Shown here piece after piece: positions 1 through 34,900 of a DNA stretch of 64,000 nt (positions within the stretch are counted from its first letter, which is position 1; each line of letters begins with the position of its first letter). The DNA comes from Antedon bifida (taxonomy: Eukaryota > Echinodermata > Crinoidea > Comatulida > Antedonidae), in assembly GCA_963402885.1 (NCBI GenBank), contig OY727093.1, positions 22,381,409 to 22,445,408 on the forward strand, given 5' to 3'. A program made the position numbers and the translations under genes. The notes beneath the pieces are model-generated. The model made no database searches. It was not told the origin of the DNA and saw only the letters and a list, made by a program, of their open reading frames with translations.

Positions 1-46
1 ATTTTCAATGTTTATTTTAAAACTACACTTTTTTTTATATTTAAAG

Positions 47-697
47 GAGACTTGGCACGCAAGAAATGGGCCAACATCAGGGATGCTTACAGCAGCAGTA
101 AACGAAAAGCTGCATCTAAAAGTGGAGATGCCAAAAAGTACATAAAGAAGTACAAATTCGAAGACATCTTGTCCTTTTTAAAACCATTTATCCAACACAG
201 AGAGTAAGTAAAATCTAATAATAATAATTAATTCAATTCTGTATAAATAGTAAACAACATAATATATTTACTAAACAAATGAACATTTTGCCTGTGGTTC
301 AAATGTATATATCACATCAAAGGTAATATAAGTCTGTAGACCATTAACAATTGTTTTTCATTTCAGGACTTCAAGTAACCTCAATAGTCCGAGTGAACAA
401 TTAAGTAAAAGCAATATTATTATTAGTGATGAGGACATTCCAGACTTGCCACACACATCAACACAAAAACCCACACCAAAAAAAAGAAAGTTACCAGATG
501 ACAGTGACAGTGTTGACATTGACAAATCAATTTTGAAGTATCTGGAAGATCAGAAAGAAAACAAGAAGGACGACATTCATTGTTTTTTTTTGTCAATGGC
601 TGAAATTTTAAGAAAACTGCCTGAAAGGGCCAGGGCTGACATCCGATTTAAAATTCACAAATTGGTTCATGAGGCTGAGATAGAGTATTTGTTTTAG
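47..697 (+). CDS. MADF-BESS protein of copy A, exons 2-3 (5' part outside window)
   Basis: Exons are 47-203 and 367-697; the 163-bp intron has a GTAAGT donor and a TTTCAG acceptor. Exon 2 gives the second half of a MADF domain (KKWANIRDAY, then a Lys-rich stretch). Exon 3 gives an acidic and Ser-rich linker, a basic PKKRK cluster that could be a nuclear signal, and a C-terminal BESS-like motif (FFLSMAEILRKLP), ending in TAG at 697. The first exon, seen in copies B and C, would lie to the left of the window. A possible AATAAA lies at 834-839. MADF-BESS proteins bind DNA through MADF and self-associate through BESS; in Harbinger elements a second, SANT/Myb/MADF-type protein typically helps the transposase reach the nucleus and the transposon ends. 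Confidence 0.85.
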
Positions 698-1314
698 GTT
701 TTGAATTTTATTGTTAAATTTTACTTTATTTTATAAAAATAATTGTATATAAATTGATTATTATTATTGTTCCACAACACTTTCGGGTTGTTGAAAAATG
801 TTGTTTTTGTACATTAACAACATTGACGAGAAAAATAAATTAACTTGTATTTTTCCGGGATGACACAATATCTTTAAAATTGCAGTATTTTAAATATTTT
901 AATTTAGCTGGCAATACTTCAAAGAAGGCAATTAAAATAACCGTTTTTTAATTTTGAATTAACCAGTGTTGAGTCTCCTTTGTTTGAGTATTTATTACTT
1001 AACTTTTATTTCATTTTTTAAAAAAAATAACAAAATAATCTCACAGCAATATTAATGCCGAAAATGTGGGGTTACTGATCAGTAGTAGTCTAGGCCTAGG
1101 TCTATAATAATTAGTTGTACAGTAACTCACCCTAGTCTTGTAGTAGTAGTACTACTATTAGGCTTACTGCTACTACTAGGCCTAGGCTGTTACTAAAGTA
1201 GGTACTACTGTACCCTAGACGCTAGAGAGGCCTGCTCTAGCTAGGGGCCTGTAGTACTAACTAATTATGATTAGTGCTCAATTAATTTATTATATTTAAG
1301 AATTATATACTTAC

Positions 1315-1616
1315 CTAAGACATATTGCTAGCCTTTCCTTTGCACTTACACTCTTTCTAAAGAAGGTGTCTTCCTTTTGTATTTTACCTCGTACCAAGTC
1401 TAAAATAGTATAGAACTGTTGCTCTGACATTCTGAAGTATTCATAAAATTTGTCTTCATGAGAAGACAATTCTCTGAACAATGTATGGAATTCCCCATAC
1501 ATTGGCCTAGATTCATTGATTGGGTGTACCCACAATCTACGTCTTTTTTGTCGACGTTTTTGTCTTCTTAATAACAAATACATCAGAAGTACTTCTTCGC
1601 TCTCGTCTGCCATCAT
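1315..1616 (-). CDS. Harbinger transposase of copy A, exon 1 only in window
   Basis: This is the 302-nt first coding exon, identical in protein to copies B and C. It starts at the ATG ending at 1616 and ends with a CTTAG|GTAAGT donor at 1315/1314. It encodes about 100 residues: an acidic start, a very basic stretch (RRQKRRQKRRR), and a helical region reaching LAICLR. That region joins the YLATGDSY of exon 2 in the other copies. Exon 2 lies outside the window. The reverse-frame open stretch here is a shadow. Confidence 0.85.
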
Positions 1617-1780
1617 GTAATTTTAACTTTAATTACGTACATACAACAACTTTTTCTAACCGTTGGGGGCGTCATCACAACGAAACGATTTCGGTTGAAG
1701 TGTGACCGCGATTGAGAACGATAAGTCACGACCGATATTTCACGTCCGATAGTTATCGGTTAGGTGTGACCGGGCCTTTA

Positions 1781-3220
1781 CACAACAAAGAGTTACAGGA
1801 CATAGAAACTGTCGACAAGTGGACACAAAGGGAAATCTTACCGGATTCCAATCTCTGGTAATACATGTCTCTGGTAAAAATATCTTGTCGAAGCATCAAA
1901 TTGCAGGGATGGGAGATGTTCTATCACTGGTCATTAAATGTTATATTTACACCGAAATTGTGTTCCTTTAGCTATTTTCCCTTCCTTTTTGACATTAACA
2001 GTGGCATCCATATACAGAAGAGCTATGAATTACGTTTGCCCGTTACTCATTCCCTGTGTTGACGTACTAAGAGAGCTGGAGTAACAGTTGGAGCGTACCA
2101 CTGACAGAACACGCCACAGAATGCTCAAACGTATAAAATCCGTACGTATAATTACTGTATTATTATTTACATTACAATTTATTCTAACTCCTAGTATTGC
2201 ATCTCGCATAACACTCAATCTCCTTATCATCACAATAATATATGCGTACAACATTTTAGCCAAATAATAAAGTCTAGAACTCTAGTAGTATGGTCAATGG
2301 TATATTATTAAGTACAGTACTAAACACCCTAACGCCATAATATTTTAAAATTGCCGAAGGATATTCTTCCGCCACAAGTACGTATATTCATTTTAACACC
2401 TAAATAAGTTCCTTAAATCTTAAAATATTTTCTTTTTATATCACTAACATACCCATTCCGTTTACATACATAGTTTCCTACTTGCATCACTCTTTTTACA
2501 TTTTACAAACATACTTGTATTTGTCTCTTTACACTTATTCTTTAACACTCATATATGTTTACATATAATATTTTCTACTTGTATTATTTCTTTATAAATA
2601 TTATCTCTTAACACAATGTTAGTTTTATTTTACACACTTATTTACATACATATTTTCTTTACATAGTTCATTAATATTATATATTTTTCCTATCAACCTT
2701 GTTTTTATATTCTGTTTACATACATTCACTTGTGTTCATTTCTTTCATATATTATCCCGTTTTCATATTATCCCTTAACACAAAATAACACATTTTTTTC
2801 CAATTTAACTTTATTTACACACCTACTTGTAATTTTTTTTCACAACACAATCATAATTTAACATTAAAAAAAAAACTATTCTTTTCCTTTTACAAACATT
2901 TTCTTGTTTAAATGTTTGCATGACGAATAAGTTTTGCAATACCAAAAGAAAATAAAGTATGGTTGACAACAGCTGTCCTCTGAGAATGCTTGGGCAATTA
3001 AAAATGAATCCAATATAATAGTAACTGTCAAGATTAGGTAATCACAATAGACTGACGTGGTGTGACCAAGTCGATGAGGGCGTGATCTGATCAAAACAAT
3101 GGCATGATTATTTCAGTTTAATAGAAATTAATAAATATGTAATGTAATGTAATGCGATATTTATATAGCGCTATTTCATGGACTTAGATGTTACACCTTT
3201 TCAACAACATTCTTCTCCCC
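1781..3220. other. Non-coding spacer between copies A and B
   Basis: This spacer is about 1.4 kb, AT-rich, with no open frame or domain I can support. Positions 2400-2860 are dominated by short TTACATAC/TTTTTAC-like runs. Near 3141-3155 there is a small ATGTA tandem just before a TTATATAGCGC motif that recurs elsewhere in the window (near 44,775), suggesting remnants of repeats. Confidence 0.6.
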
Positions 3221-3387
3221 TTAAGGCCCGGTCACACCTAACCGATAACTATCGGACGTGAAATATCGGTCGTGACTTATCGTTCTCAATCGCGGTCACA
3301 CTTCAACCGAAATCGTTTCGTTGTGATGACGCCCCCAACGGTTAGAAAAAGTTGTTGTTGTATGTACGTAATTAAAGTTAAAATTAC

Positions 3388-6090
3388 ATGATGGCAGACG
3401 AGAGCGAAGAAGTACTTCTGATGTATTTGTTATTAAGAAGACAAAAACGTCGACAAAAAAGACGTAGATTGTGGGTACACCCAATCAATGAATCTAGGCC
3501 AATGTATGGGGAATTCCATACATTGTTCAGAGAATTGTCTTCTCATGAAGACAAATTTTATGAATACTTCAGAATGTCAGAGCAACAGTTCTATACTATT
3601 TTAGACTTGGTACGAGGTAAAATACAAAAGGAAGACACCTTCTTTAGAAAGAGTGTAAGTGCAAAGGAAAGGCTAGCAATATGTCTTAGGTAAGTATATA
3701 ATTCTTAAATATAATAAATTAATTGAGCACTAATCATAATTAGTTAGTACTACAGGCCCCTAGCTAGAGCAGGCCTCTCTAGCGTCTAGGGTACAGTAGT
3801 ACCTACTTTAGTAACAGCCTAGGCCTAGTAGTAGCAGTAGGCCTAATAGTAGTACTACTACTACAAGACTAGGGTGAGTTACTGTACAACTAATTATTAT
3901 AGACCTAGGCCTAGACTACTACTGATCAGTAACCCCACATTTTCGGCATTAATATTGCTGTGAGATTATTTTGTTATTTTTTTTAAAAAATGAAATAAAA
4001 GTTAAGTAATAAATACTCAAACAAAGGAGACTCAACACTGGTTAATTCAAAATTAAAAAACGGTTTAATTGCCTTCTTTGAAGTATTGCCAGCTAAATTA
4101 AAATATTTAAAATACTGCAATTTTAAAGATATTGTGTCATCCCGGAAAAATACAAGTTAATTTATTTTTCTCGTCAATGTTGTTAATGTACAAAAACAAC
4201 ATTTTTCAACAACCCGAAAGTGTTGTGGAACAATAATAATAATCAATTTATATACAATTATTTTTATAAAATAAAGTAAAATTTAACAATAAAATTCAAA
4301 ACCTAAAACAAATACTCTATCTCAGCCTCATGAACCAATTTGTGAATTTTAAATCGGATGTCAGCCCTGGCCCTTTCAGGCAGTTTTCTTAAAATTTCAG
4401 CCATTGACAAAAAAAAACAATGAATGTCGTCCTTCTTGTTTTCTTTCTGATCTTCCAGATACTTCAAAATTGATTTGTCAATGTCAACACTGTCACTGTC
4501 ATCTGGTAACTTTCTTTTTTTTGGTGTGGGTTTTTGTGTTGATGTGTGTGGCAAGTCTGGAATGTCCTCATCACTAATAATAATATTGCTTTTACTTAAT
4601 TGTTCACTCGGACTATTGAGGTTACTTGAAGTCCTGAAATGAAAAACAATTGTTAATGGTCTACAGACTTATATTACCTTTGATGTGATATATACATTTG
4701 AACCACAGGCAAAATGTTCATTTGTTTAGTAAATATATTATGTTGTTTACTATTTATACAGAATTGAATTAATTATTATTATTAGATTTTACTTACTCTC
4801 TGTGTTGGATAAATGGTTTTAAAAAGGACAAGATGTCTTCGAATTTGTACTTCTTTATGTACTTTTTGGCATCTCCACTTTTAGATGCAGCTTTTCGTTT
4901 ACTGCTGCTGTAAGCATCCCTGATGTTGGCCCATTTCTTGCGTGCCAAGTCTCCTTTAAATATAAAAAAAAGTGTAGTTTTAAAATAAACATTGAAAATA
5001 TAAATATCATGTAAACAGCTACTGTAGTACAACTAATTAATAGTTACAATAAACATTATTTATCTATTTTTTTTTGTGTTGAAACGTTATACAAATCAAC
5101 TGTCAACACATTGCATACTGCACATTACATTTTAAAGTCAAGTAATAAATTAAAACCATTTATCTTTTTTTTTACAGATACTTGGCTACTGGAGACTCGT
5201 ACAAAACTATTTCTTTTAGTTACAGAGTCGGAAAATCAACCATTGTCAACATTGTGCCTGAGGTGTGTGATGCTATTTGGCAATGCATGCACCCTCAATA
5301 TATGCCTGTTCCAACAGAAAATGAATGGAAAGAAGTAGCAGCTGCATTCGAAACAAGGTGGCAGTTCCCAAACTGTGTTGGGGCAATAGATGGGAAACAT
5401 GTTGTTATTCAAGCCCCACCAAATACAGGATCAACCTTCTTCAATTACAAAGGTACTTTTTCTGTAGTACTGATGGCTCTGGTAGATGCCATGTACCGTT
5501 TCATACTGATTGATGTTGGAGCATATGGTTCCCAAAGTGACGCTGGAATATTTGCAAAAAGTGCAATGGGCAAAGCGATACAAGCCCATCAATTGGCTTT
5601 TCCAGCTGATAAAGCATTGCCAAATGCACCAGAGCTTGGTAAAGTTCCCTATGTCATTGTTGGGGATGAGGCATTTCCACTGAAATCAAATATTATGAGA
5701 CCTTATCCTGGCAGTGAACTTGATGACAGCAAACGAATATACAACTACAGACTTTCTAGAGCCCGGAGGATAGTGGAAAATGCATTTGGCATTTTGGCAG
5801 CAAGGTGGCGTGTCTACCAAAGGCGGATGCAATTACAGCAACACAATGTGGACAAAATAATCAAGGCTACATGTGTACTGCACAATTTTTTACAGAAGAC
5901 GGGTGATATCAATGCACAAGTAGATGCTCAAAGGTCTGCACATCATAAAGTCATACAGAACCTGCGTTTAACAGGAAATCATGCCTCAAATGACGCAATA
6001 GCAGTCAGGCACACATTCAAAGAGTACTTTATGTCACCAGCGGGTGAAGTGCCATGGCAAAGGGATGCTTGTTTTGGCAAAGCAGTTTAA
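3388..6090 (+). CDS. Harbinger DDE transposase, copy B
   Basis: Two exons, 3388-3689 and 5178-6090, give 404 residues in one frame. The 1,488-bp intron has an AG|GTAAGT donor and a T-rich TTTTTACAG acceptor. Exon 1 starts with MMADESEEV and a basic stretch. The catalytic domain (DDE_Tnp_4 type) follows in exon 2: RYLATGDSY across the splice, GAIDGKHV with D172, GAYGSQSDAGIF, VGDEAFPL with D264, and RRIVENAFGIL with E301. The last two are 36 residues apart, the spacing expected for this superfamily. CVLHNFL with N337 follows. Length is normal for a Harbinger transposase. An AATAAA lies at 6104-6109, 14 nt after the stop. No stop or frameshift is visible, so the enzyme may be functional. The intron contains two MADF exons on the other strand. 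Confidence 0.93.
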
Positions 6091-8122
6091 TTATTCATAA
6101 TGAAATAAAAGTAGATAAAATGAGAAACATTCAATATTATTAATTAATAATGTTATAATAATGCCTAACAAAAAATGGTTTACATATGAATCTCTTGGTG
6201 CAAATTTTGCAACCAAACAGTGATTTTTAATATGTACCTATTGAGCTGTTTATCTACTTATAGGTTCATACCAAGTTCATGCAACCCAAGTCTTGTCATC
6301 GTCCATTATATAGAAGGGGGGTCAACCATTATGACTACAACTAATTTCCACAATTATTGATTACATGTTTTAACCAAAGAAATTAAAATGACATAAACTA
6401 GTATAGTATGAACATTTCCAGACTTCGTAATAATTACCATCTATTAATTAAACAGGTCACAGCAAGATAAACATAACCATTACCCGAGTGATAAATGGTA
6501 GATCCCAGCTCGCTGGCATTCAAACATAGGTATCTTAATTTTGCAATTGTGAATATAAAAACGACATATAGAACTAAATAACACCTAATAATTGTTCCTT
6601 ATATATCAAACATTAGAATGATATAAAAATTAAAATGCTACTTACAAATTATATAATGAAAAATTAACCCCAAACTTAGCTACAATCCAACGGTCTGTCA
6701 AGTGAAGGCTTGATAACACAGGCAAACCCTATTTGAATTTTGCCGCGATTTTTTAGATTTTTTAGATTTTTTCAAAATAGATTTTGCTATTTTGACACAG
6801 TCTATTTTAAGCCAATGCTCATAAGAAAAGTATGTAAGGAATCTATGAATATTCAGCTTTCTTTTAAAAAACTAACCAAAATGATTGATGACATACAAGT
6901 GATCTTAAATTGCAAATAAAACACTGTGGTACTTTAGAAAATAGGTAAAAAATTGACCTCACACTGTCAGCGGGCAATGGATGGTGAGTTTTAAAACGTA
7001 AAATGACACATACTTTTTTTAACTTTACAATTTCAAACATATATAACAATGTTCAGTATTGTCTACAGTTTATTTTGAGCTACTAACCAAAAGAATCCGA
7101 TTTATAATAGCCGAGATATTTAGGTGGGAACATGAAAATCAAGTGTTTTGTAGAATATCACGGTGCGAAATCAGTGGTATTAATGTCCCAGTGGAGTGTG
7201 TTGAGGCAATTTAGCTATTTCGTTGCTCAAGAGATTCATATGTTTGCTGTAACATTGTGGGACGGTTGTAAAAAAGTTTTTTGTCATTAAATATGTTATG
7301 TTTAAAATAATTTCATATCATAGTAATATATTTTAGTTTTAAATTACATTTCAGAGTTGGGAAAAAACATCATTTTATTATTTTAATATATTTTAAATAA
7401 TGATATGGCTTTGGTAAACTTGAATATATTTGTTAATGTTGTTGTTGAATAAAATCTATTGTGAAGGTTATTATGCAATATTACTATAGTACTAGCCTAG
7501 GCCTAGTATTGATATTCTATTAATTATTCGAGAGTAATAATATATTTGTTAATGTTGTAAATTTAATAAAATCTATTGTGAAGATTATTATGCAATATTA
7601 CTATAGTACTAGGCCTAGCCTAGGCCTAGTAGTATTGATATTCTATTAATTATTCGAGAGGATTATAATATATTTGTTAATGTTGTAAATTTAATAAAAA
7701 TCTATTGTGAAGATTATTATGCAATATTACTACTAGTATTTTTATTATTTTTCATTTCATAAACCATATTCTGTGGCCTACGCTTACTAGTTAGGCCAAG
7801 TTGGTCCACCAAATGATAATTGGTTCACTGCCCGCCGTAGTCGTACACGTGCGCGCGTGCTGACTGACATCTGCAGACTACTGTCTACTCTACATCACTA
7901 GGCTAGACCTAGAAGAAATTACAGACGCGCGCCTAGCCTGGAATAATAGCTGTTAGTTAATCACTTACCAGTCATTCCAACCCTCTCGCCAATCTCGTTC
8001 CATATATCATTTTTTTTAATTTTGTTTTTGTATTCGGCGTGTCCCTTGTCATACAGAACTGTGTTTAGTTGAACGTTCAAAATCAGTGTTTCCAAAACAA
8101 CGTCTGATGTTGTGTCAGCCAT
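4303..8122 (-). CDS. MADF-BESS accessory protein, copy B
   Basis: Three exons on the - strand: 7969-8122 (ATG at 8122), 4797-4953 and 4303-4633 (TAG at 4303). They total 642 nt, or 213 residues, in one frame with GT-AG splices. Exon 1 carries the first half of a MADF domain (LYDKGHAEYKNKIKK, DIWNEIGERVGMTG). Exon 2 gives the second half (KKWANIRDAY). Exon 3 gives an acidic linker, a PKKRK cluster and a BESS-like C-terminus from about residue 170. MADF is a Myb/SANT-related DNA-binding fold; BESS mediates protein contacts. By analogy with other Harbinger elements it should be the second protein needed for transposition. The first exon is shorter than the usual gene-finding cutoff; I found it from its ATG, donor phase and fit to the MADF fold. 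Its 3.0-kb intron 1 encloses transposase exon 2 and the nested element. Confidence 0.9.
6183..7242. mobile_element. 1.06-kb non-autonomous DNA element nested in copy B
   Basis: This element is present in B and absent from C, where the flanks read GGTTTATTTGCTG without it. It has 15-bp perfect inverted ends, CATATGAATCTCTTG, or 16 bp if the bordering A and T are included. It has no coding potential I can support; the small open frame inside on the - strand has no recognisable content. No clean target duplication is visible: B reads TTTA before the element and TTTG after it. It lies in MADF intron 1 and so interrupts no exon. Confidence 0.85.
7415..7745. repeat. ~120-bp tandem repeat inside copy B
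   Basis: About 2.7 units of an AT-rich sequence, each with TATATTTGTTAATGTTGT, AATAAAATCTATTGTGAAG and TTATGCAATATTACTA, with CTAGGCCTAG palindromes between units. The same array occurs in copy C (about 11,506-11,825), so it belongs to the transposon. It lies in MADF intron 1, between transposase exon 2 and MADF exon 1. Confidence 0.8.
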
Positions 8123-8213
8123 CGCGCCACAGAGGAGGAGAGGAGAGGAGGAGTGGAGAAATTCACTGTTGATGACAGGTATGACGTACCATCATCTGAT
8201 TGGCTAAAAACAA

Positions 8214-8383
8214 AATTATCGGGCGATACAAAAAAAAAATCGCTATAGAAGCCATTCGACCGATTTGGCTCCCGATGACCGTCTCGATTATCGCTCTAGT
8301 GTGACCGCCCCCGCTGTTATGCACTATACCGATATTTTTGTATCGATATCGGTCTAAAATATCGGTAAGGTGTGACCGGGCCT
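8214..8383. promoter_or_regulatory. Sub-terminal TATCG/CGAT motif cluster at the right end of copy B
   Basis: The last ~170 bp of B (repeated in C at 12,301-12,469) hold many TATCG, CGATA and CGATATCGG motifs in both orientations: TTATCGGGCGATA, AATCGCTATAG, ATTATCGCT, GTATCGATATCGG, AATATCGGTAAGG. The left end has a matching set within 3240-3290 (CGATAACTATCGG, AATATCGGTCG, CTTATCG). I infer binding sites for the transposase and/or the MADF protein. They also lie upstream of MADF exon 1 and could act as its promoter region. Confidence 0.45.
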
Positions 8384-8529
8384 TTACCGATAACTATCGG
8401 ACGTGAAATATCGGTCGTGACTTATCGTTCTCAATCGCGGTCACACTTCAACCGAAATCGTTTCGTTGTGATGACGCCCCCAACGGTTAGAAAAAGTTGT
8501 TGTATGTACGTAATTAAAGTTAAAATTAC

Positions 8530-11236
8530 ATGATGGCAGACGAGAGCGAAGAAGTACTTCTGATGTATTTGTTATTAAGAAGACAAAAACGTCGACAAAA
8601 AAGACGTAGATTGTGGGTACACCCAATCAATGAATCTAGGCCAATGTATGGGGAATTCCATACATTGTTCAGAGAATTGTCTTCTCATGAAGACAAATTT
8701 TATGAATACTTCAGAATGTCAGAGCAACAGTTCTATACTATTTTAGACTTGGTACGAGGTAAAATACAAAAGGAAGACACCTTCTTTAGAAAGAGTGTAA
8801 GTGCAAAGGAAAGGCTAGCAATATGTCTTAGGTAAGTATATAATTCTTAAATATAATAAATTAATTGAGCACTAATCATAATTAGTTAGTACTACAGGCC
8901 CCTAGCTAGAGCAGGCCTCTCTAGCGTCTAGGGTACAGTAGTACCTACTTTAGTAACAGCCTAGGCCTAGTAGTAGCAGTAAGCCTAATAGTAGTACTAC
9001 TACTACAAGACTAGGGTGAGTTACTGTACAACTAATTATTATAGACCTAGGCCTAGACTACTACTGATCAGTAACCCCACATTTTCGGCATTAATATTGC
9101 TGTGAGATTATTTTGTTATTTTTTTTAAAAAATGAAATAAAAGTTAAGTAATAAATACTCAAACAAAGGAGACTCAACACTGGTTAATTCAAAATTAAAA
9201 AACGGTTATTTTAATTGCCTTCTTTGAAGTATTGCCAGCTAAATTAAAATATTTAAAATACTGCAATTTTAAAGATATTGTGTCATCCCGGAAAAATACA
9301 AGTTAATTTATTTTTCTCGTCAATGTTGTTAATGTACAAAAACAACATTTTTCAACAACCCGAAAGTGTTGTGGAACAATAATAATAATCAATTTATATA
9401 CAATTATTTTTATAAAATAAAGTAAAATTTAACAATAAAATTCAAAACCTAAAACAAATACTCTATCTCAGCCTCATGAACCAATTTGTGAATTTTAAAT
9501 CGGATGTCAGCCCTGGCCCTTTCAGGCAGTTTTCTTAAAATTTCAGCCATTGACAAAAAAAAACAATGAATGTCGTCCTTCTTGTTTTCTTTCTGATCTT
9601 CCAGATACTTCAAAATTGATTTGTCAATGTCAACACTGTCACTGTCATCTGGTAACTTTCTTTTTTTTGGTGTGGGTTTTTGTGTTGATGTGTGTGGCAA
9701 GTCTGGAATGTCCTCATCACTAATAATAATATTGCTTTTACTTAATTGTTCACTCGGACTATTGAGGTTACTTGAAGTCCTGAAATGAAAAACAATTGTT
9801 AATGGTCTACAGACTTATATTACCTTTGATGTGATATATACATTTGAACCACAGGCAAAATGTTCATTTGTTTAGTAAATATATTATGTTGTTTACTATT
9901 TATACAGAATTGAATTAATTATTATTATTAGATTTTACTTACTCTCTGTGTTGGATAAATGGTTTTAAAAAGGACAAGATGTCTTCGAATTTGTACTTCT
10001 TTATGTACTTTTTGGCATCTCCACTTTTAGATGCAGCTTTTCGTTTACTGCTGCTGTAAGCATCCCTGATGTTGGCCCATTTCTTGCGTGCCAAGTCTCC
10101 TTTAAATATAAAAAAAAGTGTAGTTTTAAAATAAACATTGAAAATATAAATATCATGTAAACAGCTACTGTAGTACAACTAATTAATAGTTACAATAAAC
10201 ATTATTTATCTATTTTTTTTTGTGTTGAAACGTTATACAAATCAACTGTCAACACATTGCATACTGCACATTACATTTTAAAGTCAAGTAATAAATTAAA
10301 ACCATTTATCTTTTTTTTTACAGATACTTGGCTACTGGAGACTCGTACAAAACTATTTCTTTTAGTTACAGAGTCGGAAAATCAACCATTGTCAACATTG
10401 TGCCTGAGGTGTGTGATGCTATTTGGCAATGCATGCACCCTCAATATATGCCTGTTCCAACAGAAAATGAATGGAAAGAAGTAGCAGCTGCATTCGAAAC
10501 AAGGTGGCAGTTCCCAAACTGTGTTGGGGCAATAGATGGGAAACATGTTGTTATTCAAGCCCCACCAAATACAGGATCAACCTTCTTCAATTACAAAGGT
10601 ACTTTTTCTGTAGTACTGATGGCTCTGGTAGATGCCATGTACCGTTTCATACTGATTGATGTTGGAGCATATGGTTCCCAAAGTGACGCTGGAATATTTG
10701 CAAAAAGTGCAATGGGCAAAGCGATACAAGCCCATCAATTGGCTTTTCCAGCTGATAAAGCATTGCCAAATGCACCAGAGCTTGGTAAAGTTCCCTATGT
10801 CATTGTTGGGGATGAGGCATTTCCACTGAAATCAAATATTATGAGACCTTATCCTGGCAGTGAACTTGATGACAGCAAACGAATATACAACTACAGACTT
10901 TCTAGAGCCCGGAGGATAGTGGAAAATGCATTTGGCATTTTGGCAGCAAGGTGGCGTGTCTACCAAAGGCGGATGCAATTACAGCAACACAATGTGGACA
11001 AAATAATCAAGGCTACATGTGTACTGCACAAATTTTTACAGAAGACGGGTGATATCAATGCACAAGTAGATGCTCAAAGGTCTGCACATCATAAAGTCAT
11101 ACAGAACCTGCGTTTAACAGGAAATCATGCCTCAAATGACGCAATAGCAGTCAGGCACACATTCAAAGAGTACTTTATGTCACCAGCGGGTGAAGTGCCA
11201 TGGCAAAGGGATGCTTGTTTTGGCAAAGCAGTTTAA
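8530..11236 (+). CDS. Harbinger DDE transposase, copy C
   Basis: Exons 8530-8831 and 10,324-11,236 give 404 residues, with splice sites identical to copy B. The catalytic motifs (GAIDGKHV, VGDEAFPL, VENAFGIL) are intact. The one protein difference from B that I see is N337K, turning CVLHNFL into CVLHKFL. That Asn sits in a motif that is well conserved in the superfamily, so copy C may have reduced activity. An AATAAA follows the stop closely, as in B. The intron again contains MADF exons 2 and 3 on the opposite strand. Confidence 0.92.
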
Positions 11237-12208
11237 TTATTCATAATGAAATAAAAGTAGATAAAATGAGAAACATTCAATATTATTAATTAATAATGTT
11301 ATAATAATGCCTAACAAAAAATGGTTTATTTGCTGTAACATTGTGGGACGGTTGTAAAAAAGTTTTTTGTCATTAAATATGTTATGTTTAAAATAATTTC
11401 ATATCATAGTAATATATTTTAGTTTTAAATTACATTTCAGAGTTGGGAAAAAACATCATTTTATTATTTTAATATATTTTAAATAATGATATGGCTTTGG
11501 TAAACTTGAATATATTTGTTAATGTTGTTGTTGAATAAAATCTATTGTGAAGGTTATTATGCAATATTACTATAGTACTAGCCTAGGCCTAGTATTGATA
11601 TTCTATTAATTATTCGAGAGTAATAATATATTTGTTAATGTTGTAAATTTAATAAAATCTATTGTGAAGATTATTATGCAATATTACTATAGTACTAGGC
11701 CTAGCCTAGGCCTAGTAGTATTGATATTCTATTAATTATTCGAGAGGATTATAATATATTTGTTAATGTTGTAAATTTAATAAAAATCTATTGTGAAGAT
11801 TATTATGCAATATTACTACTAGTATTTTTATTATTTTTCATTTCATAAACCATATTCTGTGGCCTACGCTTACTAGTTAGGCCAAGTTGGTCCACCAAAT
11901 GATAATTGGTTCACTGCCCGCCGTAGTCGTACACGTGCGCGCGTGCTGACTGACATCTGCAGACTACTGTCTACTCTACATCACTAGGCTAGACCTAGAA
12001 GAAATTACAGACGCGCGCCTAGCCTGGAATAATAGCTGTTAGTTAATCACTTACCAGTCATTCCAACCCTCTCGCCAATCTCGTTCCATATATCATTTTT
12101 TTTAATTTTGTTTTTGTATTCGGCGTGTCCCTTGTCATACAGAACTGTGTTTAGTTGAACGTTCAAAATCAGTGTTTCCAAAACAACGTCTGATGTTGTG
12201 TCAGCCAT
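9449..12208 (-). CDS. MADF-BESS accessory protein, copy C
   Basis: Exons 12,055-12,208 (ATG at 12,208), 9943-10,099 and 9449-9779 (TAG at 9449) make 642 nt and 213 residues, matching copy B. Donors are G|GTAAGT and GA|GTAAGT; acceptors are TTTAAAG|GA and TTTCAG|GA. Intron 1 is 1,955 bp and contains transposase exon 2 (10,324-11,236) on the other strand. A purine-rich GAGGAGGAGAGG tract lies just upstream of the ATG (12,217-12,242). Function as for copy B: MADF DNA-binding domain at about residues 13-100, basic cluster at about 140, BESS-like motif at about 170-210. Confidence 0.9.
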
Positions 12209-12472
12209 CGCGCCACAGAGGAGGAGAGGAGAGGAGGAGTGGAGAAATTCACTGTTGATGACAGGTATGACGTACCATCATCTGATTGGCTAAAAACAAA
12301 ATTATCGGGCGATACAAAAAAAAAATCGCTATAGAAGCCATTCGACCGATTTGGCTCCCGATGACCGTCTCGATTATCGCTCTAGTGTGACCGCCCCCGC
12401 TGTTATGCACTATACCGATATTTTTGTATCGATATCGGTCTAAAATATCGGTAAGGTGTGACCGGGCCTTAA

Positions 12473-28900: not shown

Positions 28901-31900
28901 TTTTATTAATGTATATGCACCTAATAATTACAAAGAAAGGGCAAACTTCTTCAAAAAATTAGAAAAAAAAATTGAATTGATGTGTTTTAAAAAAGAAGAA
29001 TATACAATAATTGGAGGTGATATGAATTGCATTTTAGAAAGAAAATTAGATCAAAAAAATAGTGTAAATCAATACGACAAGTCACCATCTGTGTTAAAGA
29101 ATTGCATGACAAAAAATAAATTAATAGATATATGGAGACAATATCACAAAACAAAAACCCAATTTACTTGGAGACGAAAAAAGCACGTACAGGAGGTTAG
29201 ATCTGTGGTGCATCTCAAGTGCCCTTTATAAAAATGGTGATGTGATGTCTACCGACATTAGACCATCAATATGTTCTGACCATCAGGCTATCTCATTAAA
29301 AATATTAAATAATCAACAAAAAGCTGGTTCAGGAATATGGAAAATTAACTGTAGTATTCTTAAACATGAAGAATACAACATAAAAATAAAAAGAATTATT
29401 GAAAATGTAAAAAAAAATGAAAATAATCTTACTCCAGACTTGCTGTGGGAACTACTTAAAATAAAAATAAAAGAATTTTCTGCTAAATTCTGTGCAAGTA
29501 AAAAAAAGAGATGAATGTTAATAAGTTAAACCTAACTAAGGAAGTCAACGTATTAACGAACAAACTTAATATCGCATACGATCAAAATATAGAAGAAAAA
29601 AAAAAAAAAACTAATGACTTAGACAAGATTTATCATTGTGAAGCAAAAGGCGCCATAGTCAGATCAAGAGTTAAATGGTTTGAAACGGGAGAAAGAAATA
29701 ACAATTTTTTTTTAGGATTGGAGAAAAATAATGCAAAAAAAAAACATATTACCATGCTCTTAAAAAGGAATGGAAAACATACTACGGATGTTCACGAGAT
29801 ACTAGAGGAACAAATTAGATTATATGAACATCTGTATTCAAATAAAATTCTAACAGAAAATGAAATAAATAAATATTTACGAAATACTACAGTTAAAAAA
29901 CTATCGGAAAAAGATAAAATAGAATGTGAGGGAATATTAACAGAAGGAGAACTAACAAAAGCAATATCTAACATGAAGTTGAATAAAAGTCCGGGTTCTG
30001 ATGGGCTAAGTGTCGAATTCTATCGTCATTTTTGGGAATATCTAAAAGATATTTTGTGTAATTCTTTAAATTACAGTTACAACAATAATAGTTTAAGTAA
30101 CTCACAGAGGTTAGGTGTAATAAATCTTTTACTTAAGAGTGGAAAGAGAGAGTGTCTCGAAAACTGGAGACCAATTACATTGCTAAATGTAGATTACAAA
30201 ATAATGGCACATGCTCTTTCAAACAGACTAAAAAAAGTATTAGGGTCTATTATCAGTAATGATCTAAAAGGATATACTAATGGGAGATTTGGAGGAGAAA
30301 ATGTTAGACTAGTTGAAGATGTGTTGTCTTATACGAAAGAAAAGCAAATACCAGGAGCCATGATTTTTCTTGACTTTGCTAAAGCATTCGACTCAATAGA
30401 TAGAAAACTAATGTTAAATGTTTTAAGAAAATTTGGTTTTGGTTTATCTTTTGTACATTGGATAAATGTAATATACACATGCACTAGATGTATGGTTAAA
30501 AATAACGGATGGGTTTCAAACAGTTTTAATATGGAATGTGGAGTACGTCAAGGTTGCCCATTGTCTGCACTATTATTTACTGTTGTAGTCGAGGTAATGG
30601 CAATAAATATAAGAAATAATCCATTGTGTAAGGAAATTGAATTACCTGAGAATAAAGATATTGATAATATTGTGAAAATAGCTCAGCTCGCTGATGACAC
30701 TGTGATTTTTACAACAGGTGAAAATAGCTTAAAATATTTTTTCACTGAAATCAATGCAATTTGTAATATTTCAGGGTTGAAGCTAAATAAAGGAAAATGT
30801 AAAGGAACCTGGATTGGATCAATTCAGAATAACCTAGCAACCCCTTGTGGTATCACTTGGACGAAAGAGCCAGTGAAATTCCTCGGAATTTATGTAGGCT
30901 ATAAAAAAGGTATTTGTGAAAAAAAAACTGGGATGATAAAATTATGGATTTAGAACATACTTTAAGGCTATGGGAAAAACGACACCTTACCTTCTTTGGA
31001 AAAATGATAATAATTAAAAGTCTAGCAATTTCAAAATTAATATACAATGCTAGTATTATCAATGTACCAAAACATATATTTTTAATGGTAGAGAAGTTAT
31101 TGTATAGATTCCTATGGGGAAATAAAAAAGAAAAGATTAAGAGGAAAACACTTATAAATAAAATAGAAGAAGGAGGGGTTAATATGATTGATTTTTATGT
31201 AGTTGTGAACTCGTTAAAGCTAAACTGGGTTAAGAGACTACTTAGCCCAGACCCAGGCAAGCGGAAAGTCTTTATACTTCAAAGATTGGTTAAAGTCGGG
31301 CTATAAAACAATTGGTGACATTTTGGTCAATAACACAATTGTAAGTCTTAGAGATTTAATTCCCACGTTATTAGTAAAGCATAATGGGATAATAGAATAC
31401 TTCAATCTCATGAATGCTATTCCTATTGAATGGAAGAAAGTATTGGCACGACATAGAATAGAGAAAGAACAAGTTACTGTTGATATTAAAAATGAATTAT
31501 TCAAATCAAATGTTAAAACAGGTTTTTATGATAAGTTTTTAATTGAATTAAAGACAGTGCCAATCTCCCAAGTAAAATGGGAAACAGAGTTTTTAAATAA
31601 GACTATGGTATGGAACAAAATATGGAATAATAAAGTCAAAGATATGAAACATATGGTAAAAGTTGCGCAATTCAATTTTAAACTTTTACATCGCATACCT
31701 GTTTGTAATAAAAGATTACATATTTGGAAATTGTCTAAAACTAATATTTGCGATAGATGTAAGAATGTGATAGAAAACGAAGAACATAGGCCTATGTTAC
31801 TTAAGTGTAAAGTGATTAAGCCAGTTTGGAGGAAATTCAATAATCTTATTGTTGAATGCTTTCCTAATGAAACGCCAATACATTGGTTTGATATAGTTAC

Positions 31901-34900
31901 TGGTTCCAAAGATAAACTTGTAAATGAACTAACATCTATCTTTACGTTTTGTATCTACAAATCCCGCATAAGGCTTTGTTTATTAGATAACATGATGGGT
32001 AACGAATCAAAAAGTATCTTGAATATGTTTAAGTTTGAATTAAAAAATCTTATAGAAAATGATTACGCATGTAATCAGTATAAAGCAGTTATAAAATGGA
32101 ATGATGTTAAAATTAAATTATTAGAATTCATAAAATAAGAAAAATATAAAACTAGTACAAGCTGTAGTGTATATATTATATAAACATTCATATAATGGAA
32201 AATCAAAACTGTACTAGTAGTTAATATAAAGTTATGTAAGAATGTAATAAACCAATTGAATTAAGTTTAGGCAGAACACATAATTGTAACACATCTGCTA
32301 TGATAATATTCTATATATGAAATAATGCTAAACATAAGGTCATACCTATAATAAAGCAATACATTATAAAACTAACAAACACCTAGGCCTATACTAAAAC
32401 TAATACATGATAGAAATAAATGTATTAGGGTAAAACATAGACTGAAACACACGGTCAAACATATAAGTAAACAAACAATGTAAATGGCCAACATAGTAAG
32501 AACAGAACTTTAACGTTTAGAAATAGTGGAATGAAACAAATGTTATACAAGGCCAAAACATAAAAAGTAGCATATAATGTGTTTATAATAACTATGTTAA
32601 ACTGATTCGTAAATGTAAATAGGTTTATTAATGTGTGTATGGGTGTATATATTTGTAATGAATGTAATATAAGGTCAAAAGAAATAAAGAAACAAATTGT
32701 ACTACTGATTTAAGATATAATAAAAGAAACAGCTACTTTTTAATACATTTCTTAATATAAAGTAAATTTAAATGATAAATAGTCGTACTTTTACTATAAC
32801 TTGCAATAAACATAAAATGTACGTTTTTAAAGCATACTTTTACTCCATCGATTTTATGTACATGTATAGATATAGTGCCTTTTTAGCTACTATATTGAAT
32901 TTTATTGTTTTATATTTTTATAAAAATGTATGTATGTTATATAATATATATTTGTAAAAGGAATGAATAAATGTGGGTGACCCTCACGAGAGAGAGAGAA
33001 AAAAAAAGCTAATAATACAAATCACTTTTTATCTATTAATAAAGAGAGGATTACATTTTAACCATATTGTACAAAATGCTTTTTGTTTCTTGTAATAAGT
33101 GCTCATCGAGACTCATTTAAATGAAAATATACCCGATAATGGTCTGGCAGTACCAAATTACAATTAAATCTATTACGAGGAGATTCGTAGTGGAAAAACT
33201 TCGAGAAGTGGTTGTATGTGTATATTGTGAAAGACAAACGTAAAGAGACTAATAACAAAATTCAAGAAAGTAAAATTAAATTAAGGAAACAAATTTTTTA
33301 AGTTTTAAATAAAATAAACCACAAGAGGCATGGAAAGCACTTAAGAATCTAACACAATATGAGGTAAAGACAAATGTAGCAGATAAGACTATAGGCCCGT
33401 ATTCATGAAAGGGGACTCACTTTAGTCCTGGATTATCTCTGGATTTAGTCCTGGACTATCTCGAAATGGTATTCATGAATACCGGCCATAGAGTTCACAA
33501 ATGAGTTAAATGAATGTTATTGTCGTTACGAAAGGCATAACTTTAGCATTGAAATGACCAATATTGAAGCTGAAGCAAATAGAATGTGATGATATAATTG
33601 TAGACAAAGCTGATGTCAAGAAACTCTTCTGTAAGGTTAAATCAAATAAAGCTGCTGGTCCCGACATGATCTGTAACAGAGTAATTAAATTCTGTGCTGA
33701 TCAACTAGCCCCGGTATTTACCACGATTTTTCAGACATCGATCAACACACAGTTATGGAAAAGAGCTCACGTTATCCCTGTACCGAATAGTAAGACTATC
33801 AGTAACCTAAATGATTATAGATCGGTGAGGAATGAATGTTTATTATTTTATTTAATTATTTATTTTAATGTAAACTGGCCAGAAACTATGGCATGGTTTA
33901 CTGTCGATTAAGATTATTGTTGAATTAAGATAGCCAAATGTCGCTGATAACAAATCCAATATCTTGATGAACCGTGTTGTGCTTGTAGATTTCAATAGCT
34001 TCCCTGGTTCGTCTGGAATGCCAAGAAGGAACGGTAGCAATTAGTTCAGCATCTTTCCAATTAACTCGGTGTTGTTGTTTGTGAGAATGTATAACTATTG
34101 ATGAATTGTCTTGCTCTCCTCTTCTGGCATGGCCTTGATGTTCTTTGAGCCTGGATTGAAGGTCACGTCTAGCTTCCCCAATGTATACCTCTCCACATTC
34201 ACATGAAGTACAGTATACAGGTTGGTTGTGTTTAGATGGTTTGTCCTTGTGTGTTTGAAGACACTGTGACAACTTGTTGACTGCACTATAAAATACTTTT
34301 ATGTCGGCGTTTTGTAGTACTCGCTGGATGCTGTCCAAAACAATGGTAAACATACAGATTTTCTGAACTCTGCAGGATCGCTGTTGTCCTTCCTGTTGTA
34401 ACCCTTAAGTTCCAATGCTTTGTTGACATGTTGTATTTCTTCTTCTCTCAACATTAAAAAAAACAATTAAAGGAAATAATATTTAATTTTAGGCATCATC
34501 CTGAATACAGTAATATTAAGTGATAAGTTATTAGTAGGGTGACCGAATTTGTATCTATATATACATTTACGTAAGGACAATATCCATAATACTTTACACT
34601 AATTATTTTAATAATAATAATAATAATAATAATATAACAATAATAATAATAACAATAATAATAATAACAATAATAATAATAATGATATCAATAATAAGAT
34701 TTAAACAGTTTTAGTCGGTTTTACTCTTGATTTCAGAGATTAAACGATTTAGATCAAGTTCATTTGAAAAAAAGAATGACATTACTGTTGGCTTATAAAC
34801 TGAAACTGAAACTAAATCTCTACTTTCAGAGTCCTGCAATAATGATCTTGGAATTGAGGATGGTAGAATTCCTAATAGTCAAATGACGGCATCAAGTTTC

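Follow-up and report, generated by a model that had tools for sequence, protein, structure and literature searches.

The closest described relatives are insect PIF and fish Harbinger elements with a MADF or Myb-like gene which, in the portions of the reports available, combine a Harbinger transposase with a DNA-binding partner and have terminal inverted repeats (TIRs) of about 15 bp and a 3-bp target duplication; the Myb-like protein of the superfamily aids nuclear entry of the transposase and binds the TIRs (PMC9179366, PMC9710019). The PIF/Harbinger elements of Medicago, as far as the available part of that study goes, also have two genes and introns in the transposase, and their gene order depends on the lineage, with orf1 upstream or downstream of the transposase (PMC2213677). 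The element analysed here lies in a 64,000-nucleotide stretch of the crinoid Antedon bifida (G000:C1:22381409-22445408; the window, to which positions without a contig name refer). It is like the insect and fish elements in its Harbinger transposase and DNA-binding partner, its TIRs and its target duplication, and differs from those of Medicago in that its transposase gene (T) and its MADF gene (M) appear to be threaded through each other on opposite strands. The genome searched comprised 315.6 Mb in 27 contigs, and counts taken from the search tables are lower bounds.

From left to right the element reads T exon 1 (+), M exons 3 and 2 (-), T exon 2 (+) and M exon 1 (-), an order proposed by a sequence-only reading of the window and confirmed in the sequence. 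Its features are as follows.

3224..8383, plus strand: copy A with both TIRs, 5160 bp, of which 1060 bp are an insertion
3224..3238, plus strand: left TIR AGGCCCGGTCACACC, with TTA before it
3391..3689, plus strand: transposase exon 1, with an in-frame alternative ATG at 3388
3690..5177, plus strand: transposase intron, 1488 bp, GT..AG, enclosing opposite-strand MADF exons 3 and 2
4303..4633, minus strand: MADF exon 3, with the BESS motif; minus-strand AATAAA at about 4166
4797..4953, minus strand: MADF exon 2, MADF profile positions 45-84
4954..7968, minus strand: MADF intron 1, 3015 bp in copy A and 1955 bp in copy B
5178..6090, plus strand: transposase exon 2, DDE_Tnp_4, within MADF intron 1; AATAAA at 6104
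6183..7242, no strand: 1060-bp insertion with inverted ends CATATGAATCTCTTG, not in the other copies compared
7969..8122, minus strand: MADF exon 1, with the start codon at 8122 and positions 1-37 of the MADF profile
8369..8383, minus strand: right TIR of copy A
8386..12469, plus strand: copy B, 4084 bp, head-to-tail with copy A, left outer 17 bp gone
8533..8831, plus strand: copy B transposase exon 1
9449..9779, minus strand: copy B MADF exon 3
9943..10099, minus strand: copy B MADF exon 2
10324..11236, plus strand: copy B transposase exon 2
12055..12208, minus strand: copy B MADF exon 1
1..1777, minus strand: part of a third, inverted copy running past the left edge, with transposase exon 1 at 1613-1315 (-) and MADF exons 2 and 3 at about 47-203 and 367-697 (+)

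The T model joins 3391-3689 to 5178-6090 in one frame, 403 residues long when counted from ATG 3391 and 404 from ATG 3388, and the M model joins 8122-7969, 4953-4797 and 4633-4303 (-) in one frame of 213 residues, the coordinates given earlier being correct. All three introns have canonical splice sites, with GTAAGT donors and the acceptors ACAG (T), AAAG and TCAG (M); the T and M acceptors point at one another across 224 bp. The T intron encloses M exons 3 and 2 and M intron 1 encloses T exon 2, so that the introns are mutual, as had been claimed, and the coding spans overlap by 1788 bp, in line with the roughly 1.8 kb of antisense overlap proposed, while the coding sequences have no base in common. 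Three statements of the sequence-only reading had to be narrowed. The length of M intron 1 holds for copy A only, because the insertion lies inside it. The models agree across copies, but A and B are 99.7-100% identical and their agreement is therefore not independent evidence. Finally, the "both full copies" of that reading are indeed A and B, yet B is incomplete and a third full copy (C1:22379085-22383168), inverted, lies across the left edge of the window.

Searches against Pfam agreed with the two-protein Harbinger identity suggested before, a DDE_Tnp_4 transposase and a MADF-BESS protein: T matched DDE_Tnp_4 (PF13359) over positions 1-158 of 158 (E-value 9.4e-36), and M matched MADF (PF10545) over 1-84 of 84 (6e-17) and BESS over 1-35 of 35 (8.5e-5). 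Transposase exon 1 alone gave weak matches to unrelated Pfam families and nothing else. M exon 1 alone matched positions 1-37 of the 84-position MADF model with 33.9 bits and exon 2 alone positions 45-84 with 22.8 bits, each passing the curated cut-off of 22 bits. The two exons thus carry complementary halves of one domain, so the long MADF splice is well supported, and these halves are the strongest sequence evidence for it. When the T intron was shuffled 2000 times, 23 shuffles yielded a frame of the length of exon 3; that length by itself is not strong evidence.

The MADF protein nearest to M came from Antedon mediterranea (NCBI), with 89% identity across 65% of the query length. In viral contigs no relative of M was confirmed. 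The NCBI record P0001 of the same species starts with MTGDLARKKW, a stretch that passes from the close of M exon 1 into exon 2 (the window just upstream of exon 2 reads FIFKG), and runs on into M exon 3 before a frameshift. T homologues came from fish, insects, molluscs and other animals; many were about 50% identical along most of the protein, and many of the 120 listed transposases (6097 matches) aligned with 97-99% of T, spanning the exon junction.

The same layout was found in a diverged family, L029/L037. In L029 (C7:21279500-21286500) the minus strand holds T exon 1 (5769-5548) and exon 2 (about 3941-3040) and the plus strand holds MADF exon 1 (1280-1435) and exons 2-3 (4003-4613), giving in element order T1, M3-M2, T2, M1, the register of the focal element. 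Identity to the latter is 60% in T exon 2, 47% in T exon 1, and 42% and 28% in the MADF pieces, and a blastn alignment between the two was confined to a stretch of T exon 2; the introns nevertheless lie at the same residues, the MADF domain is split at the same residue, and the acceptors of both genes again face each other, 61 bp apart. L037 is a truncated copy, 94-95% identical to L029, which keeps only the M2-M3/T2 part. With transposases about 60% identical and the same splice points, this family provides independent support for the interlock and, together with the two MADF halves, points to a layout beyond chance.

The element is about 4.1 kb long and was found in the same exon order at eight young loci on five contigs: three on C1 (A, B and the inverted neighbour), one on C7 (C7:5043593, its right end detached by an insertion), two on C8 (C8:21483097 and C8:4388145), one on C10 (in pieces, with MADF exon 1 broken by an insertion) and one on C15 (C15:11073819). 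All exons were unbroken in seven of these, and T exon 2 was open for 313 residues in all eight; two older decayed copies, L015 and L032, also kept the exon order. Older copies were seen at C1:22374940 (94%), C14:9154478, C9:11186068 and C8:23306558, the last two from tables only. The young copies are 99-100% alike, and their likeness therefore reflects recent spread rather than conservation. The short TIRs typical of PIF/Harbinger were present as a perfect 15-bp repeat, and TTA/TAA 3-bp target duplications (TWA) matched in five of the seven copies with both ends readable, two of the five abutting another copy on one side. Judged by its sequence, the element belongs to the PIF/Harbinger DNA transposons, has moved recently and encodes a predicted DDE transposase and a putative MADF-BESS DNA-binding protein. 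Each end of copy A has two occurrences of the word CGGTCACAC (3229 and 3293; 8299 and 8370); found in each TIR and again 64-71 bp further in, the word is a candidate binding site.

Differences between the older copies and copy B were distributed unevenly. The older C1 copy differed at 35 of 1854 positions in coding exons and at 74 of 1822 in introns (Fisher p 0.0001), and the C14 copy at 33 of 1451 and 67 of 1798 (Fisher p 0.02); the MADF exons taken alone were also less changed in the C1 copy (11/642, p 0.004). Changes at codon positions 1, 2 and 3 numbered 10, 2 and 12 (C1) and 4, 5 and 7 (C14) in T, and 1, 3 and 7 (C1) and 4, 2 and 11 (C14) in M, so that the third position was the most changed in both genes of both old copies, whose frames are broken. 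Since the exons are less changed and third positions most changed, both reading frames look constrained, as the interlock model requires.

The family L017-L021 probably presents an interlock in a second register, with a weakly supported last MADF exon. Its transposase has three exons, MADF exons 1 and 2 lie beyond the transposase end, and a minus-strand frame of 120 residues occupies most of transposase intron 2. At two of the five loci (L017 and L019) this frame is joined to MADF exons 1 and 2 at GT-AG sites to give a predicted protein of 233 residues, whose stop codon overlaps an AATAAA, and in the resulting model T intron 2 encloses M exon 3, and M intron 2 encloses T exon 3. In L020 the reading frame of M exon 3 shifts shortly before its end; L018 and L021 lack exact matches to one or two landmark words, and their exons were not joined. 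MADF exons 1-2 of this family matched positions 1-84 of 84 of the MADF model (E-value 7.6e-22). M exon 3 matched neither Pfam BESS nor a hidden Markov model of the last exons of the other families, and the protein had no homologues at E 0.001. In pairwise comparison the last exon reached z 5.3 with that of L029, 3.1 with L033 and 1.4 with L036, and showed nothing with the focal element, L030 or L039; last exons of the other six families, compared in 15 pairs, gave z 3.8 to 17. The frame length of this exon was reached in 10 of 2000 intron shuffles.

Counting as a family any fetched DNA with both a transposase and a MADF gene, eight families were recognised: the focal element, L029/L037 and, provisionally, L017-L021 are interlocked, and L030, L033/L034, L039, L035/L036 and L040 are separated. 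Excluded from the count were L038 (a relative of L030 with MADF pieces only), L031 (transposase pieces only) and L013, L014 and L022-L028, for which the fetched 9.5 kb each gave no MADF match; other MADF matches known from tables only, among them C7:16479249, C11:21416502, C13:2658732, C16:521260, C9:1876888 and C9:11173373, were also left uncounted. In the separated families the transposase is followed by the opposite-strand MADF gene, tail to tail, and in the fetched DNA no exon of one gene was found inside the other. The first MADF exon sits at the far end, pointing toward the transposase, in all eight families, and the MADF domain is split at nearly the same place in L030 and L033/L034, by a short intron in the latter. 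Protein records of A. mediterranea also touch the separated sister family L033/L034: P0006 joins its T exons at the matching residue, and L034 is 96-98% identical to a protein other than the nearest MADF record. The span from T start to M start is about 3.5-4.5 kb in interlocked and about 2.5-5.0 kb in separated families; the layout therefore saves no space, and compaction was rejected as its reason. In the transposase tree L029 was not firmly placed: a clade of the focal element with L029 was neither supported nor rejected (p-AU, from the approximately unbiased test, 0.12), and the p-AU was 0.239 for the focal element with L030 and 0.067 for focal, L029 and L030 together. One or two origins of the first register are therefore both possible, and a single origin was dropped as a conclusion.

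We consider it probable that this is a Harbinger element with inward-facing genes, in which each gene is spliced across the 3' block of the other and whose layout arose by an intronic block swap and is mainly tolerated. The coding sequence of T begins 167 bp from the left end of copy A and that of M 261 bp from the right end; promoters would lie near both ends, transcription would run inward from each, and the two units would cross over the 1788 bp of coding span. Splicing in vivo would then strip the partner's 3' block from each pre-mRNA, so that the mature coding sequences share no base. The AATAAA motifs beyond the stop codons, at 6104 (+) and about 4166 (-), are placed so that T would end in MADF intron 1 and M in the transposase intron. 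Compared with the separated order T5' T3' M3' M5', the interlocked order T5' M3' T3' M5' has its 3' blocks exchanged with no inversion, and every breakpoint falls in an intron; the layout may thus have originated by a swap of 3' blocks from convergent genes, possibly through a head-to-tail dimer of the A-B type that then lost segments bounded by intronic breakpoints. Since all breaks lie within introns, we think that the layout is mainly tolerated, and that antisense transcription and shared fate are consequences rather than demonstrated targets of selection. As hypothetical consequences the sequence-only reading named nuclear double-stranded RNA, interference between the two transcripts, and a pairing that would keep either gene from being lost alone.

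Several side observations concern the copies and their surroundings. Region C1:22374940-22393877, which takes in 1-12469 of the window and DNA to the left of it, is a near-symmetrical array of four copies, two (-) and two (+) around a spacer of about 1.45 kb. Its inner minus copy matches copy B with a listed identity of 100% across 4084 bp, so that long inverted arms face each other; inverted duplicates can give rise to hairpin RNA, a mechanism proposed for Mu killer of maize (PMC3440606). In L010 and at the outer ends of the A-B pair, GGCCC..GGGCC is flanked on either side by TTAA, in contrast to the TWA that borders the remaining readable young copies. The A/B junction (8369-8402) is common to both copies, a full TIR plus TTA closing A and B starting without its outer 17 bp. 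The inverted ends of the 1060-bp insertion are perfect, and no clear target duplication was seen around it. A tandem repeat of about 116-128 bp occupies 7423-7738 of MADF intron 1 in A and 11509-11824 in B; it contains CTAGGCCTAG-like words, which recur in the transposase intron. On C8:21522100-22203607 (including L001-L004 and L006-L008) there are 16 DDE_Tnp_4 matches of near-equal score with one internal TAA each, over about 0.7 Mb, and at 29502-32138 of the window two long open frames resemble by eye a LINE-type (long interspersed nuclear element) reverse transcriptase.

Certain findings weigh against the preferred reading. In L029, T exon 1 and MADF exon 3 are each interrupted by a stop, and no TIRs were found in the fetched 7 kb; target duplications were unmatched in two of the seven readable copies (L010 and the old L015); the MADF exons were not significantly less changed in the old C14 copy (17/642, p 0.26); P0001 contains a frameshift, is without most of exon 1 and entered the comparison as a protein record only; M intron 1 has a weaker acceptor (TTTAAAG) than the other introns; and the direction from separate to interlocked rests on commonness, the tree being unrooted. 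The long intron and weak acceptor would fit partly wrong splice models, with MADF exon 1 belonging to another transcript and no interlock through M intron 1. This we regard as very unlikely, since exons 1 and 2 match complementary parts of one domain, P0001 joins them, and the split falls at the same residue in L029 and at nearly the same place in L030 and L033/L034; MADF exons 2 and 3 would remain inside the T intron regardless. Near-identical tandem and inverted copies are difficult to assemble, but an assembly error, or chance reading frames, is extremely improbable given eight loci on five contigs, with differing flanks where read, plus a diverged family, and for the exon order we hold an assembly error to be refuted by the other loci.

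It is also conceivable, though we think it unlikely, that the interlock was selected, either because it couples the genes against deletion of one alone or because opposed transcription and nuclear duplex RNA cap both at high copy number. The layout is common to the deeply diverged focal element and L029 (T about 60% identical), the second register is probable in L017-L021 so that interlocking could have evolved repeatedly, the 1788-bp overlap is dictated by the coordinates, and the convergent genes of maize MuDR have antisense transcripts, according to the part of that report available (PMC3440606). Against selection, five of the eight MADF-type families examined lack the interlock, the overlap would be as likely to invite silencing as to give useful self-control, and a single old origin of the focal element and L029 was not rejected (p-AU 0.12), so that recurrence depends on L017. 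An adaptive interlock with at least two origins in different intron registers within one crinoid lineage, making the genes inseparable and their pre-mRNAs mutually controlling, is likewise unlikely, and a layout that is mainly tolerated remains our preferred explanation.

The closest parallels differ from this arrangement. The domesticated insect pairs are described as adjacent genes and, in the parts of the reports available, exons of one gene within introns of its partner are not mentioned, unlike the focal element (PMC9710019, PMC9179366). MuDR likewise has two convergent genes; transcription of these starts within or close to its own TIRs, and its antisense transcripts arise from failure of termination between the genes; MuDR belongs to another superfamily, however, and, as far as the available text goes, has a region between its genes and no threading (PMC3440606). 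The interlocked layout was not described in the portions of the literature surveyed, outside which lay reports on single repeat families and most subscription journals. Our analysis suggests that a DNA transposon can thread its two genes through each other and still spread, in which case splicing alone would have to separate two antisense genes within 4 kb. The presence of interlocked and separated relatives in one genome offers a ready comparison for silencing, copy-number limits and protection against deletion. The interlock is also a warning for annotation: gene models built strand by strand could drop exons of either gene. Interleaved pairs, in which the exons of one gene lie in the introns of an opposite-strand partner, are known among animal genes; those are host genes, whereas the pair described here belongs to one mobile element.

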